Origin: Shinella sp. SUS2
Lineage (GTDB): Bacteria > Pseudomonadota > Alphaproteobacteria > Rhizobiales > Rhizobiaceae
Direction of reading: 5' to 3'
Length of the DNA stretch: 64,000 bases
Assembly (NCBI RefSeq): GCF_001262505.1
Contig: NZ_KQ410733.1
Location: 1 to 64,000, forward strand
The position numbers and the translations under genes were made by a program. Every line of letters starts with the position of its first letter. Within the stretch, counting starts at the first letter, position 1. The notes under the pieces were generated by a model. It was not told the origin of the DNA, searched no databases, and saw nothing but the letters and a program-made list of their open reading frames with translations. Of this stretch, positions 37,252 to 44,173 are shown piece by piece.

Positions 37252-38946
37252 TCAATCGGCGTCCCGGTCCTTGGCGCGGTCGGCGGGCACCCTTGCCGCC
37301 GCGTTGCCGACCGAGGCGGCCAGCAGGGCCTGTGTCGGATCCGTGCCTTTGAAGCCGGCCTGTGCGAGGATCTCGTCGAGGATGGGTTTCTGCGCGGTGA
37401 AGCTCAGAAGCTGGCTGCTGAGGTCACCGACGGGATTTCCTGCGCCGTCGCCGCCATTGCCGGCCAGCGCACCGGCGAGGCCCCCGGCGCTGAAGATGCG
37501 GATGTCCGAGATCTTCTCGATCGGCTTCATGGCCTGTTCCAGCGCCTCGGGTATGATGGCAACGCGGGCGCGGGCAAGCTCGAACTCGATGATGCTGGCC
37601 GAAAGGGCGTTGCGGGCTTCGTTGAGCGCGCGCTCGGCCTGAGCTTCGGCCTGACCGAGCTCGACAACGCCGGTCGCCTTGATCTTGGCAGCTTCCGCAT
37701 CGGCCTGCGCCTGGATTTTCGTCGCGGCGGCGAGGTTTTCTGCAGCCTGCCGCTCGGCCTCGGCCTTCACGGTGATGGCGGTCGCGGCCTGTTCGGCTTC
37801 CTTGCGCGCATCGAGCACGGCGATGCGCTTGGCGCGCTCGGCGATCTCGACTTCCCGCGCGGTCGTTACCTGTTCTTCGGCGGTGATGGCCGAGGCCTTG
37901 GCTTCGTCCGCCTTGGCGCGGGCGGCCTGCTCCTGCTCGCTCTTCTCCGCCACGGCAATCGCGGCGTCGATACGGGCGGTTTCCGTCACCCGGCGGGCCT
38001 CGGCTTCCCGTTCCGCAATGCCGCGCTCGGCGTCGATGCGGGCGGTTTCCTTGGCCTGGCGCGCCTGGGAGTCGCGCTCGGCAATGCCCTTTTCGGTATC
38101 GAGCCGGGCGGTTTCCTCGCTGAGACGCGCAAGCTGTTCGGCCCTTGCTGCCTCCGCGCGCGTCTCGGCGGTCTTGTTGGCGATATCGCGTTCCTGCGTC
38201 AGCTCGGCGTCACGCTGTTCGCGCTCGATGGTGAGGCGGCGCAGCGAGGCTTCCCGGTCCTTGGTGGCAATCTCCACCTCGTTGTCGCGGACGATCTGGT
38301 TGCGCTCGCGCTTGCGCTCCTCGGTGATCTTGGTGAGCGCGGTCAGGCCCTCGGCGTCGAAGCTGTTGTTCGGGTTGAAATGCTTGATGTCGGTCTGGTC
38401 GAGACGGGTCAGCGACACGGACTCCAGCTCTAGGCCGTTCGACTGCAGATCGTGTGCGACCGCGGCCTGCACCGACTTGACGAATTCGGCGCGCTGCTCC
38501 TGCAGGTCGCGCAGCGACATGGTGGCGGCGACCGAGCGCAGGCCGTCGACGAACTTCGCCTCGACCAGCGTCTTCAGCGCATCCGCGTCGTTCGTGCGAT
38601 CGCCGAGCGTCTGGGCGGCAAGGGCGATGTTTTCCGAATCCGGCTTCACGCGGACATAGAATTCCGCGGTGATGTCGGCGCGCATGCGGTCCTTGGTGAT
38701 CAGCGATTCGTTCTCGGCGCGCTTGACCTCCAGCCGCAGCGTGCTGAGCGACACCCAGGAATAGGAGTGGAAGATCGGCAGGATGACCGACCCGCCGTCG
38801 AGCACGACCTTCTTGCCGCCGAGGCCCGTGCGCACATAGGCCTTGTCGCGCGTGGCGCGGGTATAGAGCGAGGTCATGATGATGCCGATGACGACGACCG
38901 CCGTCACGATGACCCCGGCGATGATTCCTACCGAGAGGAAGTCCAT
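37252..38946 (-). CDS. yqiK: Flotillin-family protein (YqiK-like)
   Basis: A 564-aa SPFH membrane scaffold, close in length to E. coli YqiK (553). One N-terminal membrane helix (about 7-28) is followed by the SPFH domain (about 35-205) and a long Ala/Glu-rich coiled coil (about 215-455, with repeats such as ETARIDAERGIAEREAEARR). The C-terminus is variable. It organises membrane microdomains by family precedent. It lies 6 bp downstream of yqiJ in the pspA-yqiJ-yqiK operon, an arrangement fitting envelope stress protection. Confidence 0.92.
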   Translation of the reverse strand: MDFLSVGIIAGVIVTAVVVIGIIMTSLYTRATRDKAYVRTGLGGKKVVLDGGSVILPIFHSYSWVSLSTLRLEVKRAENESLITKDRMRADITAEFYVRVKPDSENIALAAQTLGDRTNDADALKTLVEAKFVDGLRSVAATMSLRDLQEQRAEFVKSVQAAVAHDLQSNGLELESVSLTRLDQTDIKHFNPNNSFDAEGLTALTKITEERKRERNQIVRDNEVEIATKDREASLRRLTIEREQRDAELTQERDIANKTAETRAEAARAEQLARLSEETARLDTEKGIAERDSQARQAKETARIDAERGIAEREAEARRVTETARIDAAIAVAEKSEQEQAARAKADEAKASAITAEEQVTTAREVEIAERAKRIAVLDARKEAEQAATAITVKAEAERQAAENLAAATKIQAQADAEAAKIKATGVVELGQAEAQAERALNEARNALSASIIEFELARARVAIIPEALEQAMKPIEKISDIRIFSAGGLAGALAGNGGDGAGNPVGDLSSQLLSFTAQKPILDEILAQAGFKGTDPTQALLAASVGNAAARVPADRAKDRDAD

Positions 38947-38952
38947 GATCGT

Positions 38953-39609
38953 TTACCCTCCGTTGTTGGGATAGTGGCTGTCTTCGAGCACCGCGGGGGC
39001 GGGGATGGCTTCGAAGAGGCCGTCCTTCCCGTCGACGATGAGCACGGACGCGCCCGTCTCGATCACGTGCCCGGGCACGGCCCGGGCACGCAGTGTGTGG
39101 ATGTTGTCGTAGCGATCCTTGATCCGGACTGTGCCGGGATGGCCCTGATCGAGCGGCCCGAGCGTCACCGTGCCGACGAGACCGATGAAATCGGCCTGTT
39201 CCTGCACGCTGGTCTCGTCGCGCGGGATGATCCGTGCCAGCCCGCGCGATGACCAGCGGGTGACGGGAATGGCAACGGCGAGCGCGCCGGTGACGGCGGC
39301 ATAAAGCGGCAGCGGTTCGTGGAACTGCGAGATGACCGCCTGCAGGGCGAAGCCGGCAGCGGAAAAGGCGGAGAGCAGGATGACGGCGAGCACGAGGATC
39401 GGTACGCCGCCGGCATTGAGCCAGGACATCCACCCGCCGAGAAGACCCGATTCCGCATCACCCGGCCCGTTGAAGTCGAGGCCGTCCTCGATCAGTCCGG
39501 AGGCGGACGCGCCGAGCAGCACCGAGACCAGCTCGACGATGCCGAGGCCCGCCACCGTCAGAAGCGCGATCCAGAAGGGAGCGGTGCCCGGGTGGACGAT
39601 GGAATCCAT
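38953..39609 (-). CDS. yqiJ: YqiJ-like OB-fold membrane protein
   Basis: A 218-aa membrane protein with about three helices in the first 115 residues and a soluble OB-fold (NfeD-like) domain after it (FIGLVGTVTLGPLDQGHPGTVRIKD). It matches E. coli YqiJ (209 aa) in size and position next to YqiK. NfeD-type domains partner flotillins. The start overlaps the pspA-like stop by one base (TGATG). Confidence 0.88.
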   Translation of the reverse strand: MDSIVHPGTAPFWIALLTVAGLGIVELVSVLLGASASGLIEDGLDFNGPGDAESGLLGGWMSWLNAGGVPILVLAVILLSAFSAAGFALQAVISQFHEPLPLYAAVTGALAVAIPVTRWSSRGLARIIPRDETSVQEQADFIGLVGTVTLGPLDQGHPGTVRIKDRYDNIHTLRARAVPGHVIETGASVLIVDGKDGLFEAIPAPAVLEDSHYPNNGG

Positions 39610-40253
39610 CAGCGCTCACCGTGCTTGAAGGCGGCCAGGCGTGCCTCGATCGCCTTCTGGCGTTGCAGGCGTCCCAGTTCCTCCACCTCCGCCGTGCCTT
39701 CCATGGCCGGCTTGGACGGAACGCCGGTGACGCGTTCGACGGCCTCCAGCGCATCGGCAAGGCGCCGGTCGTTGCGCTGGGAGGGCGTGGCGGTCGGTGG
39801 GACGGCGCGCTCTGCGCGGCGTGCATCCTCCAGCCGTTTCATCGCATCGGCGCGGGCCGAGGCGATGCTGCGCAGCGTCGCTTCGGCCTCGGCAATCTCG
39901 CCGGCATTTTCCAGGATGGCCTTGGAGAGGGCGTCTCGCTGGGCTTCGAGGTCGATCTGGACGCCGGTGGCGGCACGGGCGAGGTCTTCCCGGCCGCTTT
40001 CCAGCCCGACCTTGATCTTCTCGTCGAGGTCGCGGATCTCCGCGTCGAGGTCGTCGGCCTTGGCTTTCAGCCGGTGGCCGGCGGCCATGGCGACGCCGAG
40101 CGCGGCGCGGGCCTCCTCCGCGATCGTGCCGATCTCGCGGACGGCCTGCTGTGCCACGGCGACCGGGTTCGATGCCTCGGCGGCATCGACTGCGGTGTTG
40201 ACGACGCCGGCGATGACGCGCCCGAGGCGGGCGAGGATACCTTCGTTGGACAT
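39609..40253 (-). CDS. PspA/IM30-family protein
   Basis: A 214-aa helical coiled-coil protein of the phage-shock/IM30 family (ESCRT-III-like), closer to YjfJ than PspA. NEGILARLGRVIAGVVNTAVDAAE is the N-terminal amphipathic helix that binds membranes. ATG 40253 has a strong GAAGGAGG 8 nt upstream, so it can be made independently. However, the frame is open through the upstream TnpB-like segment, so a 369-aa fusion could also be produced. It heads the yqiJ-yqiK pair. Confidence 0.87.
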   Translation of the reverse strand: MSNEGILARLGRVIAGVVNTAVDAAEASNPVAVAQQAVREIGTIAEEARAALGVAMAAGHRLKAKADDLDAEIRDLDEKIKVGLESGREDLARAATGVQIDLEAQRDALSKAILENAGEIAEAEATLRSIASARADAMKRLEDARRAERAVPPTATPSQRNDRRLADALEAVERVTGVPSKPAMEGTAEVEELGRLQRQKAIEARLAAFKHGER

Positions 40254-40718
40254 GGAAGCCTCCTTCTTCGAATGGATGCCGGCCTGGATGCCGGCATAGA
40301 GACAGATGGACGACCCGGAAAAGACGAGCCGCGCTTCGGCAAAATCCCCCCAGCCGTCGCGATAACCGCTTGCCGCATAGGGCAAGACGATGCGCCCGCC
40401 GAGCGTTGCAATGCTCACGCTGTCCGGGCCCTTGACCGCGAAGAGCTTGGAATCGAGCGGGACGTCCGCGACGATCTCTCCTGGCTTGCGGCGGCCGTGG
40501 TCGCGCAATGCGAGTGTCACGAGGCGGGCGGGAAGCCCTGTCGCGGTGCGGATGTCTTCATAGGCCGCCTGATGCAGTGCCACGACATTGGCGCCCTTGG
40601 TCCGGTCCAGGATTGCCATGGCCTGCTGGTAGGCCGCCAGCGTCTCGGACAGTGCTCGGCGCATGTCCGGGGTGGGCTGAAGGTCGAGCCTGAGGCTGGA
40701 TGTGAACTTCGTTGCCAT
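40254..40718 (-). CDS. TnpB-like N-terminal lobe segment, open in frame into pspA
   Basis: About 155 codons resembling only the N-terminal part of IS200/IS605-type TnpB (OrfB). LRLDLQPTPDMRRALSETL matches the family's opening beta strand and helix. ATGLPARLVTLALRD matches the GLPAQ helix, and FAVKGPDSVSIATLGGRIVLPY matches the FKGxDxVSLxTLxGRxxxP region. The RuvC nuclease domain and zinc ribbon are absent, and the frame runs into the PspA gene without a stop. It may be a domesticated fragment, an IS remnant or part of a fusion protein. The start at 40718 is uncertain; no Shine-Dalgarno is present. Confidence 0.6.
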
Positions 40719-40725
40719 AGCTAAA

Positions 40726-40754
40726 TATATAAAGCACTTCATTGGTGCTTTCAA
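40726..40754 (-). promoter_or_regulatory. Promoter with perfect dyad in front of TnpB-like/pspA operon
   Basis: Minus-strand -35 TTGAAA (40754-40749), 17-bp spacer, -10 TATATA (40731-40726). The spacer holds the perfect dyad AAAGCAC-N7-GTGCTTT (40731-40751). The predicted transcription start falls on or next to the ATG at 40718, suggesting a leaderless message. The dyad may be an operator or, less likely, a leftover transposon-end hairpin. Confidence 0.55.
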
Positions 40755-41038
40755 GGCCGATTTCGCTTCGACTGCCTATTCAACGGATGAGGTCGGCAGT
40801 CTCTTCGGTGGGGCAGGCGTTGTTTTTCGTCCCGCCCGCGAGCGACACGATGCCATCTTGCCTGACCGTCTGCCGGAACCGCGAGCATGAAGACCGGCGG
40901 CTCGCCTGACCGTTGCCGAAAACGAAGAGCGAGATCCATTCCGGTCTTGAATTTGAAATAAGCCGGTTATGTTGATCGTCTTATCTGGGTCGCGCCCGCG
41001 ACCGGCAAAGCCGTTCGATATCGTCAAGAAGTGTCCTC

Positions 41039-44000
41039 ATGCAGCTTTCCCTCCGTATCGTTCTCTCCCTCGTCCTTTTCATCTTCCTCGCCATGCCGGC
41101 TTCTGCAAAGGCCCCGACGCAGGCGGCCATCGCGCGGTCGGACGTCATCGCGGCGGAGATGAAGGCGCTTGCGGAGGGCGGCGACCTGAAGGGCGCGCGC
41201 CGCAAGGCGGAGGCGGCGAGCGCCCAGTTCAAAACGGAGGGAGAGACCTGGCTTGCCGCAAGCTATGCGGTCTCGGCGGCCGATTATGCGATGCGCATGG
41301 GCGATGCGGCGCGCGTCGATGCCGACTACTATCCGCGCATGGGGGAACTGCTCGCAACGCTCGAGCCGGTGGAGGAAACCCGGGCCAATCTCCTGCTTGA
41401 ACTTCTGATGGACGCGAAAGGCCGGCTCGGCGACAAGGACCGGCAGGATGCGCTGGCGGAACTCTACGAAGAGCGGATTCGCAAGGCCCATGGCAGGGAC
41501 AGCGCGGAGGACGTCGACGCCCGGGTGCGCACCGCCTACAGCCTGCTGGAGAGCCAGCGCCTGGAGGAGGGCCGCAAAAGGCTGCGCGCTGCGCTGGCCG
41601 CTTCGGCGAGGACGGAGCTGCATGCCGTGACGTTGCGGCACTATACGCAGGCCGCACGCAGCTTCCAGGCGAGCGGCCTCAACGACGACGCAGCGGAGCT
41701 CTTCCGGGAGGCGGAGCAAACAACCGCCATCCGCGCCGAGGTGAAGGAGCTTGCGGACTTCTACCTTGCCTATGCGGAGTTCCGCACCGCAGTGCCCGAC
41801 AGTGGACAGCATTTCGTGCCGCTCTACTCCATGGCGACCAATCTCTATGCGCGTTTCTACGGCCATGAATCCTCGGAGCTGATCCATGCAACCGACAAGC
41901 TGGCAAGCGCACTGTCGGAAGTCGGGCAGTATGGCACGGCAATCGATCTCGAACGGCGCAACTACGAAATCGCGCAGAAGTCGCTTGGCGACGACGATAC
42001 CATCACGTGGCGCATCGCCAACAATCTCGCCGACATGCTGCGCGGCATGGGCTCGCCTTCCCGGGCGCTGGAATACGACCTGAAGGTGCTGGAAAACCGC
42101 ACCCGCCACTACGGCCAGAACCATTTCAACACGCTGGTGAGTGCCAACAACACCGCGCAGAACTATCTCGATCTCGGCGATTATGCCGAGGCGCGTCGCT
42201 ACTTCGCGCTGTGCCTGGAGATATCGCAGGCGCTTGGCGATCCCGTGACGATTGCCGGCATGGAGGCCTGGCTTGCCTATACCGATCTGCTCTCGGGCGC
42301 CCGACCGATGGATGCGGCGGCGCTCGGGCGTATCGAGGCGCTCGTCACCGATTCCAACTATCCGGCGATCCTCAGCATGAAGGCGGCCAATTTGCTGGCG
42401 GATCATTTTGCCAAGGCAGGCAACGTGGAACGGCAGATCAAGCACCTGCAGCAGGCCTACAGCATTGCCGGGGGCGAGATGAGCACCGGTCACCCGCTCG
42501 CCGTTGCCGGGCGCATCGCCCTTGCCAATGCGAAGGCCGCGACGGACCCCGCCACGGCTGCGGAGGAATTCGCCGCTATCGACCAGGACATGCTGCGCTG
42601 GGTGCACTTGCAGGTCTCCGTGGCGGGCGGTCGGGAGGTCGGCGAGGCGGTGCGCGCCATGGCGGACGACATGCTCTACGATTATGCGCGCTTTGCCGAA
42701 CAGCACACCTCCGCCGTACCCGCCTTTGCCGATGCCGCCCGGCGCTGGCCCTCGCTCGCCACTGCCGATGCGGACAATGCGCTGAAAGTTGCCCGCATGG
42801 TTGATCGCTCGGATACCGAGACAGTGCGCCTGCTTGACCGCATCACGCGCCTGTCGCGCATTGCACGTGAAATCTTCGCCGCCGATGTCGAGCAGGATCT
42901 CGCCTATGCCTATCTCTCCGACACCAAGGCGCTGGAGCAGCAGCTGCATGAGCGTATCGTTGCGCGCTACCAGCTGGATCGAGAAAAGGTTCTGAACCAG
43001 CCGTTGCCGACCCCGGGTGATCTCCTGGGCAGGGATCAGGTGCTCGTCCAGTATTTCACGACCCGCAAGTGGCGCGTGGACCGTGAAAGCGCCGATCCGA
43101 TCGCAGATGCGCGGCTTTACGCCATCGTCTGGCGCAAGGGTGCGGCGCCGGTCCTGCGGGGGCTCGGCGATCCGCGCAGATTGCTGGTGGGCGGCGAGGA
43201 TATGGTGGCCGCGCTCCAGACGCGCGATCGCAGCACGGGGGAGGGCAGGGGGCTGTTGGTGCAGGCGAGCAAGCGCGCCTTTTCCCGGCTGCATGACGGG
43301 CTGATCGCGCCGATCGACGCCGACATTGCCGGTGCCAAGACCGTCTTCATCGTGCCGGATGGACAATTGTTTGCCTTGCCCTTCTCCCTGCTCGAGGATC
43401 CTGCGGGCAGGTTGCTCGAAGAGCGCTTCACGCTCAGGCTGCTGACCGAGCCGGAAGCGCTATACCGGGCTGTCGAGGACCGTGCGCTGCCCTCCGAGGG
43501 CCGGGTCGTGCTGGCGGGCGGCATCGACTACGCAAAGGGCGAGGAGGCGGGTGCCATGCCGCTGCCGGGCACGCTGCGCGAGGTGGAGGCGATCGGCAAA
43601 GTCCTGTCCGGCCCGGGCTTGAGGATCGAGACCCTTTCGGGAGCTGCTGTTGGCGAGGCGGCACTGCGCGAGCGCATGACGGGGGCGACCGTCGCCCATC
43701 TGGCGACGCACGGCGCCTATGGCAGCGCGAAGAATGGCGGTGCCAGCAATGTCGATACGCTGTGGCAGAGCGAGGTCATCCTCGCCCGGTCGGGCGATAC
43801 GCGCGCCATGCGTCGCGACGAGAAGGACGGGCGGCTCTACGCCTTCGAACTGATGGGCTGGGATCTCTCCGGCCTCGATCTGCTGGTACTCTCGGCCTGC
43901 GAAACCGGGCGCGGCGACGAGGCGTTCGTCGGGGGGCTGCGCGGCCTGCCGACCGCGGCAAATCTCGCCGGTGCCAGGCGCTCCCTGCTGACGCTCTGGC

Positions 44001-44173
44001 CCGTCGCCGACGATGGCACCGCCGATTTCATGGTGCGCTTCTACGAGCACCTGAAGGACGGGCAAGCCTATGCCGAAGCGTTGCGCAGCACCCGGCGCGA
44101 CGCCATCGAAGGCCGCATACCCACGGCGCAGGACCCGCTTGTCTGGGCCGCCTTCGTGCTGTTCGAAAACTGA
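41039..44173 (+). CDS. Exported TPR-CHAT domain protein
   Basis: A 1044-aa protein with a signal peptide (1-24, cleavage after ASA), a long region of tetratricopeptide-like helical repeats (about 30-620), and a C-terminal CHAT domain (about 690-1044). The CHAT caspase-like dyad is intact: His891 (ATHGAYG) and Cys954 (LSACETG). CHAT proteins are cysteine peptidases such as the craspase TPR-CHAT or HetF-like proteins; an exported one acts in the periplasm. It diverges from the TnpB-like/pspA/flotillin operon across 320 bp. The target is unknown. Confidence 0.9.
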   Translation: MQLSLRIVLSLVLFIFLAMPASAKAPTQAAIARSDVIAAEMKALAEGGDLKGARRKAEAASAQFKTEGETWLAASYAVSAADYAMRMGDAARVDADYYPRMGELLATLEPVEETRANLLLELLMDAKGRLGDKDRQDALAELYEERIRKAHGRDSAEDVDARVRTAYSLLESQRLEEGRKRLRAALAASARTELHAVTLRHYTQAARSFQASGLNDDAAELFREAEQTTAIRAEVKELADFYLAYAEFRTAVPDSGQHFVPLYSMATNLYARFYGHESSELIHATDKLASALSEVGQYGTAIDLERRNYEIAQKSLGDDDTITWRIANNLADMLRGMGSPSRALEYDLKVLENRTRHYGQNHFNTLVSANNTAQNYLDLGDYAEARRYFALCLEISQALGDPVTIAGMEAWLAYTDLLSGARPMDAAALGRIEALVTDSNYPAILSMKAANLLADHFAKAGNVERQIKHLQQAYSIAGGEMSTGHPLAVAGRIALANAKAATDPATAAEEFAAIDQDMLRWVHLQVSVAGGREVGEAVRAMADDMLYDYARFAEQHTSAVPAFADAARRWPSLATADADNALKVARMVDRSDTETVRLLDRITRLSRIAREIFAADVEQDLAYAYLSDTKALEQQLHERIVARYQLDREKVLNQPLPTPGDLLGRDQVLVQYFTTRKWRVDRESADPIADARLYAIVWRKGAAPVLRGLGDPRRLLVGGEDMVAALQTRDRSTGEGRGLLVQASKRAFSRLHDGLIAPIDADIAGAKTVFIVPDGQLFALPFSLLEDPAGRLLEERFTLRLLTEPEALYRAVEDRALPSEGRVVLAGGIDYAKGEEAGAMPLPGTLREVEAIGKVLSGPGLRIETLSGAAVGEAALRERMTGATVAHLATHGAYGSAKNGGASNVDTLWQSEVILARSGDTRAMRRDEKDGRLYAFELMGWDLSGLDLLVLSACETGRGDEAFVGGLRGLPTAANLAGARRSLLTLWPVADDGTADFMVRFYEHLKDGQAYAEALRSTRRDAIEGRIPTAQDPLVWAAFVLFEN

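Follow-up and report, generated by a model that had tools for sequence, protein, structure and literature searches.

Can one half of an RNA-guided nuclease be retained as the DNA-binding part of a membrane-stress protein? The question is raised by a gene of Shinella sp. SUS2 on contig NZ_KQ410733.1 (assembly GCF_001262505.1), positions 1 to 64,000; this whole stretch of 64,000 nucleotides is called the window here. On its minus strand, a segment resembling the N-terminal lobe of the transposon protein TnpB runs in frame into a PspA gene, in an operon with yqiJ and a flotillin gene. The fusion is conserved across Alphaproteobacteria, and a palindrome in its promoter is inherited together with it. 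The lobe may thus act, free of any guide RNA, in repressing the operon of which it is part.

The fused gene

As the preliminary description of this locus had stated, the listed minus-strand open frame at 39609-40754 has no stop between lobe and PspA. The length of 369 residues given there also stands, but the start at 40754 does not, being a mechanically assigned TTG within the promoter region. Translation more likely begins at the ATG at 40718, which is conserved among near relatives. RefSeq annotates a single coding sequence in each of two close relatives (1113 nt in L027, 1110 nt in L029). In the four plasmid relatives that were opened the fusion is again a single coding sequence, of 362-385 aa, named PspA/IM30 in three and hypothetical in one. 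The parts of the gene are as follows.

39609-40718, minus strand: whole fusion gene, 369 codons plus stop, from the open frame, the comparison of 25 loci and the annotation of relatives
40254-40718, minus strand: predicted TnpB-type recognition lobe, made up of a WED strand, three REC helices and a WED barrel and covering residues 1-155
39609-40253, minus strand: PspA/IM30 moiety of 214 aa, also with its own internal in-frame start, from Pfam, the helices of the model and a conserved Shine-Dalgarno sequence

The PspA_IM30 domain scored 31.8 bits in the scan of the window, below the cut-off of 33.9, and 35.2 bits in the genome search, over the cut-off. In the model of the fusion the PspA part forms long helices, and the junction with the lobe is of low confidence, residues 147-181 scoring under 50. 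Because the same genome carries a second, ordinary PspA (C8:234476-235138, L090) in an open frame of 229 aa, the fusion counts as a paralogue.

Identity of the N-terminal lobe

Single-sequence scans of the window lobe against Pfam, NCBIfam, PHROGs and PDB gave no significant match, nor did a 13-row lobe profile against PDB sequences. Pfam scans of the 13 profile members gave HTH_OrfB_IS605 at E 0.22 in one member and FGase at 0.05 in one. In contrast to these library scans, the family profile aligned with TnpB itself. A Labrys copy matched an annotated RNA-guided endonuclease TnpB of Rhodovastum in tblastn (E 1e-8, 35% identity, 72% of the query), and hhalign of the 13-row profile against the full Rhodovastum protein gave a probability of 97.7 and E 1.6e-12 over 141 columns (residues 2-156). 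A 16-row profile also recovered a TnpB of full length (E 2.5e-11), encoded by a different genome of the phylum.

The AlphaFold model of the lobe had a mean predicted local distance difference test score of 82.8 and a predicted template modelling score of 0.78. Its top Foldseek match was ISDra2 TnpB (8bf8), with probability 1.00 and an E of only 2.9e-3. Structural realignment gave Z 13.0 and a root-mean-square deviation of 2.3 over 140 residues against AsCas12f (7wju, chain B), and, with VIA-align, Z 12.4 and 2.7 over 135 residues against TnpB 8ex9. All 50 of the entries shown, from 85 chains with Z of at least 2, were TnpB, Fanzor, TranC or Cas12 proteins. The RuvC part is absent from the fusion: the homologous stretch stops short of the RuvC motif (at residue 165 in Rhodovastum TnpB), and PspA follows. 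With sequence and predicted structure in agreement, the 155-residue segment is confirmed as a TnpB recognition lobe (WED plus REC) without RuvC, and on the same grounds its resemblance to TnpB is not due to chance. The first proposal for this locus, an N-terminal TnpB lobe without RuvC in frame with PspA beside a flotillin gene, is thereby borne out.

Another RuvC-less TnpB lobe is encoded on a plasmid of Thermobacillus composti (L031:2381-2911). This gene, THECO_RS19725, codes for a 176-aa 'hypothetical protein' that consists of the lobe only, and an S-layer homology gene adjoins it. A Paenibacillus plasmid carries a stretch 54% identical to that lobe, also under 'hypothetical protein'.

Conservation, spread and internal start

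Twenty-five loci were compared (the window, L012-L021, L027-L029, L009, L034-L038 and L076-L080); duplicates of counted places, the plasmid matches H2-H8 and L093 were left out of the count. Lobe and PspA are open and in one frame in all 25, across Alphaproteobacteria, so the possibility that the segment is absent or full of stops in all relatives falls away. Identity to the window lobe goes down to 33% among 16 aligned lobes, and the named carriers include Shinella, Rhizobium, Ciceribacter, Labrys, Bosea and Agrobacterium. Median pairwise ratios of nonsynonymous to synonymous substitution (dN/dS) were 0.10 for the lobe and 0.07 for PspA in Shinella (15 pairs each), and 0.26 and 0.16 respectively in Labrys/Bosea (three pairs each). 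Judged by these ratios, the lobe is under purifying selection.

Counting the genome of strain SUS2 itself, the lobe is present in eight of 101 relatives, the fusion in six of 385 genomes of the class, and the lobe in nine of 398 genomes of the phylum, where one true TnpB was found in addition. The count among relatives is eight and not nine because a further hit, L011 (G057, E 9.7e-4), was taken to be fortuitous and excluded; on inspection by eye, this place falls within a transhydrogenase-like gene that is read differently. In a FastTree phylogeny of the 25 lobes and nine TnpBs the two groups separate with support 1.0, which suggests a single origin of the fusion, a fit that an unrooted tree does not prove. 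PF12323 had no match in the SUS2 genome, in which insertion sequence (IS) ends were not searched for.

Inside the fused frame, the start of pspA is marked by a ribosome site.

40259-40263, minus strand: internal Shine-Dalgarno sequence GGAGG before the pspA ATG (40253-40251), from the conservation of GGAG

GGAG stands at ribosome-site distance before this ATG in 25/25 loci; of the 103 other internal Met codons in these frames, one has it (p 1e-25, without correction for relatedness). Because the site is kept throughout, two products are probably made, the fusion and a lobe-free PspA.

A palindrome in the promoter

The region before the fusion gene holds two overlapping elements.

40731-40751, minus strand: 21-bp palindrome AAAGCAC-N7-GTGCTTT, presumed operator, from conservation and coinheritance with the fusion
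40727-40755, minus strand: promoter-like CTTGAA-N17-TTATAT with the palindrome across its spacer, from its match to the rhizobial consensus; the ATG lies 8 nt further on

This operator-like palindrome did not figure in the preliminary description; it points to guide-free DNA binding. Its exact form occurs at one place in the 7.0-Mb SUS2 genome; with up to two mismatches allowed there were one exact site and 15 with two mismatches, against six for a control pattern. Among the 101 related genomes the exact palindrome was found in nine, namely all eight fusion carriers, once each and at the fusion promoter, and G067. This amounts to 8/8 genomes with the fusion versus 1/93 without it (Fisher p 4.5e-11, a value that ignores shared ancestry). 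In G067 (L070, around 1501), which has no lobe, the exact palindrome forms part of a longer one, itself perfect (TAAAGCACTTTTAAAGTGCTTTA), and the genes on either side are unrelated.

All 25 loci carry a dyad of 21 bp and fixed geometry, with AAA at one end and TTT at the other. Its arms pair at 7/7 positions in 17 loci, at 6/7 in seven and at 5/7 in one; among 10,000 shuffles, at least five pairs arose in 1.9% and seven pairs in 0.03%. In distant members both arms are altered together (AAAGTA/TACTTT in L035, AAAGGA/TCCTTT in L036 and L037, AAAACAC/GTGTTTT in L080); the exception is L038, where two pairs are broken and 5/7 are left. Four loci (L034, L076, L077 and L078) carry a third half-site as a direct repeat after the palindrome and before the ATG (GGTGCTTTAGTGCTTT; last base changed in L077).

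The rhizobial promoter consensus is given as CTTGAC-N17-CTATAT in the part of the source available (PMC2873474). Hexamers that agree with it at 9 or more of 12 positions flank the palindrome in 17/25 loci, with spacers of 16 or 17, and in 16 of those 17 the first in-frame ATG follows 7-9 nt past the second hexamer. A leaderless or nearly leaderless start is probable for the window promoter. The layout of palindrome and promoter looks like that of a repressor site and, as expected of an autorepressor, the palindromic site overlaps the promoter of its own gene and is coinherited with that gene. Alignment with close TnpBs puts residue 65 in the third helix; 21 loci have R there and four have Q (L035-L038). 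At arm position 5 the Q65 loci have no C, whereas C is found in 40/42 arms of the R65 loci.

Related operons without the lobe

The genes that follow the fusion allow its operon to be compared with relatives that lack the lobe.

38953-39609, minus strand: yqiJ, membrane protein gene, whose ATG overlaps the stop codon of the fusion by one base (TGATG)
37252-38946, minus strand: yqiK-like flotillin gene (Band 7 and Flot domains), from the domain scan

YqiJ was found in 24/385 genomes of the class, of which six have the fusion and ten a lobe-free pspA, while eight lack a PspA match at E 0.01 within the stretch searched. In the ten lobe-free loci (L039-L045, L047, L048 and L052) an uncharacterised ribbon-helix-helix-like gene takes the first position, and in 10/10 the gene before pspA begins, by eye, with an S[VI]R...S[ED]K.R pattern. 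The first 52 residues of nine of these ten upstream genes (L047 was left out of the alignment) were compared with a profile built from 24 of 29 ribbon-helix-helix places in related genomes, the other five having been dropped because the excised piece gave no clean translation or was unavailable. The N terminus matched this profile with a probability of 86% and E 5e-6, as against 0.2% for the TnpB lobe in the same comparison as a control. Scores of single members in hmmsearch were weak, with 3/9 over the inclusion threshold, and a curated library gave DUF6290 at E 0.012 in 1/9. The ribbon-helix-helix-like gene occupies the slot of the lobe, whose place in relatives thus belongs to a likely DNA-binding protein. 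The dyad is absent from the 500-840 bases before pspA in the ten lobe-free loci, where one scores 5/7 and the rest at most 4. Repeats of the TGCATAC type occur upstream in three of six sister operons listed (L040, L044 and L045).

On the other side of the fusion, a divergent gene next to the operon (41039-44173) codes for a TPR-CHAT protein (CHAT in Pfam at E 5e-53). None of the four plasmid relatives opened has this gene annotated in the neighbourhood.

Proposed mechanism

In the available part of the ISDra2 TnpB structure report (PMC10097598), the duplex of the transposon-associated motif (TAM) lies in the WED/REC cleft, the listed base contacts come from WED and REC, and it is chiefly WED and RuvC that hold the guide RNA. 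Because WED and REC hold the TAM duplex there, the lobe corresponds to the TAM-reading half of TnpB. A guide-free autorepressor is the simplest reading because this half was retained, the palindrome is coinherited with it, and its slot is shared with a likely ribbon-helix-helix regulator. On sequence and model evidence it is somewhat probable that the lobe is the DNA-binding domain of a PspA-based autorepressor of membrane stress.

The history and working of such a protein may be sketched. The nuclease half of a TnpB would have been lost, apparently once, in an alphaproteobacterial ancestor, and the recognition lobe would have become joined to the front of PspA in a pspA-yqiJ-flotillin operon, with its TAM-reading WED/REC cleft presumably retained. 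As a dimer, or as an oligomer held together through PspA, the lobe would bind the palindrome without a guide RNA, and the fusion bound between -35 and -10 would repress its own promoter. The PspA part would sense membrane stress by moving to the damaged membrane, so that the repressor leaves the DNA and the operon is induced. The internal start, backed by its conservation, would supply lobe-free PspA for membrane repair alongside YqiJ and flotillin. Whether the WED/REC lobe is a stand-alone sequence-specific DNA-binding domain, making with PspA a one-component stress sensor and repressor and hence a new class of transcription factor descended from an ancestor of CRISPR-Cas12, is judged evenly balanced.

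Several observations weigh against the autorepressor. To our knowledge, no TnpB lobe has been reported to bind DNA specifically without a guide. The profile comparison of the lobe with that of ISDra2 TnpB failed (probability 0.3, 20 columns), and the known TAM residues could not be mapped because this sequence alignment is lacking. The lobe model has three REC helices, compared with four in ISDra2 TnpB in the same partial source (PMC10097598). Promoter hexamers are weak in the remaining 8/25 loci, L035 lacks an in-frame ATG where one would be expected, and a scan of the window stretch for E. coli-type promoters found none and flagged the dyad as terminator-like. The match between residue 65 and the half-site is suggestive only, because the Q loci are one clade. 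The sister gene was not recognised as ribbon-helix-helix by the Pfam, NCBIfam, PHROGs or PDB sequence profiles.

The palindrome could also be the target of an unlinked regulator, or act as RNA. In the first case the lobe would have lost nucleic-acid binding and become a protein-interaction or assembly domain of PspA. This is unlikely, although it deserves some weight: PspA operons recruit several chaperone-like partners, with CesT/Tir beside YqiJ and flotillin among them, in the portion of a 2024 survey available (PMC11237479). An unlinked regulator, however, would need to track the fusion through 8/8 genomes with a single exact target in each, and to shift its specificity in step with the distant clade of the lobe. 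A 5' leader hairpin formed by the palindrome, bound by the OB-fold WED of the lobe so as to block translation, is more doubtful still. The arms covary, five of the eight imperfect dyad loci differ by T-G, which is tolerable in RNA, and the window stretch can form the stem that the terminator scan flags; WED does bind a guide-RNA stem in TnpB (PMC10097598, available part). Yet the palindrome would not be transcribed, because the hexamers flank it in 17 of the 25 loci with the ATG 7-9 nt after the -10 in 16. The third half-site is a direct repeat, and folding is no better than in shuffles for the window (z -0.51) and somewhat better for L019 (z -1.74).

The exaptation of TnpB as a repressor is known from TldR (PMC13418256, in the part available), and the preliminary description had drawn that analogy. 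A TldR-type repressor with a guide RNA encoded elsewhere is very improbable here. In the available account of TnpB (PMC10097598), WED holds the guide RNA together with the RuvC lobe, which is missing here, and an Rfam scan of 39500-41200, which would miss unknown guides, gave three weak matches, all far below gathering scores. Upstream of the promoter, a short stretch is by eye common to the window, L012, L013 and L014, and is not shared by L015 and L016. The analogy is thus unsupported: the fusion lacks RuvC, and the scan brought no guide RNA to light. The missing RuvC would also fit a decaying IS605 fragment caught beside pspA, formerly the main alternative. This is ruled out for practical purposes by 25/25 open fusions, a lobe dN/dS of about 0.1 in Shinella, conservation of the lobe down to 33% identity and the retained internal ribosome site.

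Relation to known systems

In the available portion of the 2024 survey, little variation is seen in more than 98% of PspA homologues, most of which consist of the PspA domain only, and less than 2% are tandem repeats or fusions, among which NlpC/P60 and PspAA are named (PMC11237479). The word 'tnpb' is absent from the main text of that survey, and among the titles and abstract openings found for PspA with TnpB no report of such a fusion appeared. The operon resembles the CesT/Tir-PspA-YqiJ-flotillin operons described in the survey (Ravi et al., 2024; PMC11237479, available portion) in joining PspA to YqiJ and flotillin genes; the difference is that PspA here carries a TnpB lobe.

With TnpB of IS200/IS605, an RNA-guided nuclease, the fusion shares the WED and REC lobe in sequence and predicted fold. 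It differs from TnpB in having neither RuvC nor zinc finger, in the failure to find a guide RNA, in being joined to PspA and in its conservation within a stress operon. TldR is likewise derived from TnpB, and the fusion is similarly predicted to repress transcription. In TldR, however, RuvC is mutated but present, and guide-RNA and DNA binding are kept (PMC13418256, available part), whereas the fusion has no RuvC lobe, and a palindromic site stands in place of a guide match. Selection appears here to have retained only the TAM-reading half and attached it to a stress protein. If the lobe does bind DNA alone, the TAM-reading cleft of Cas12-type proteins would be a transcription-factor fold in its own right. 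As far as we know, the domestications of TnpB (Cas12 and TldR) all keep the RNA-guided two-lobe machine.

A functional parallel is the PspA-PspF switch of enterobacteria, in which PspA inhibits PspF and so links membrane stress to transcription. There, PspF is a separate AAA+ protein with a Fis-type helix-turn-helix, whereas here it is PspA itself that bears a TnpB lobe. If the lobe does bind DNA alone, the regulation of a PspA operon without a nearby PspF becomes testable. By analogy, the fusion may represent a one-protein version of the PspA-PspF switch.
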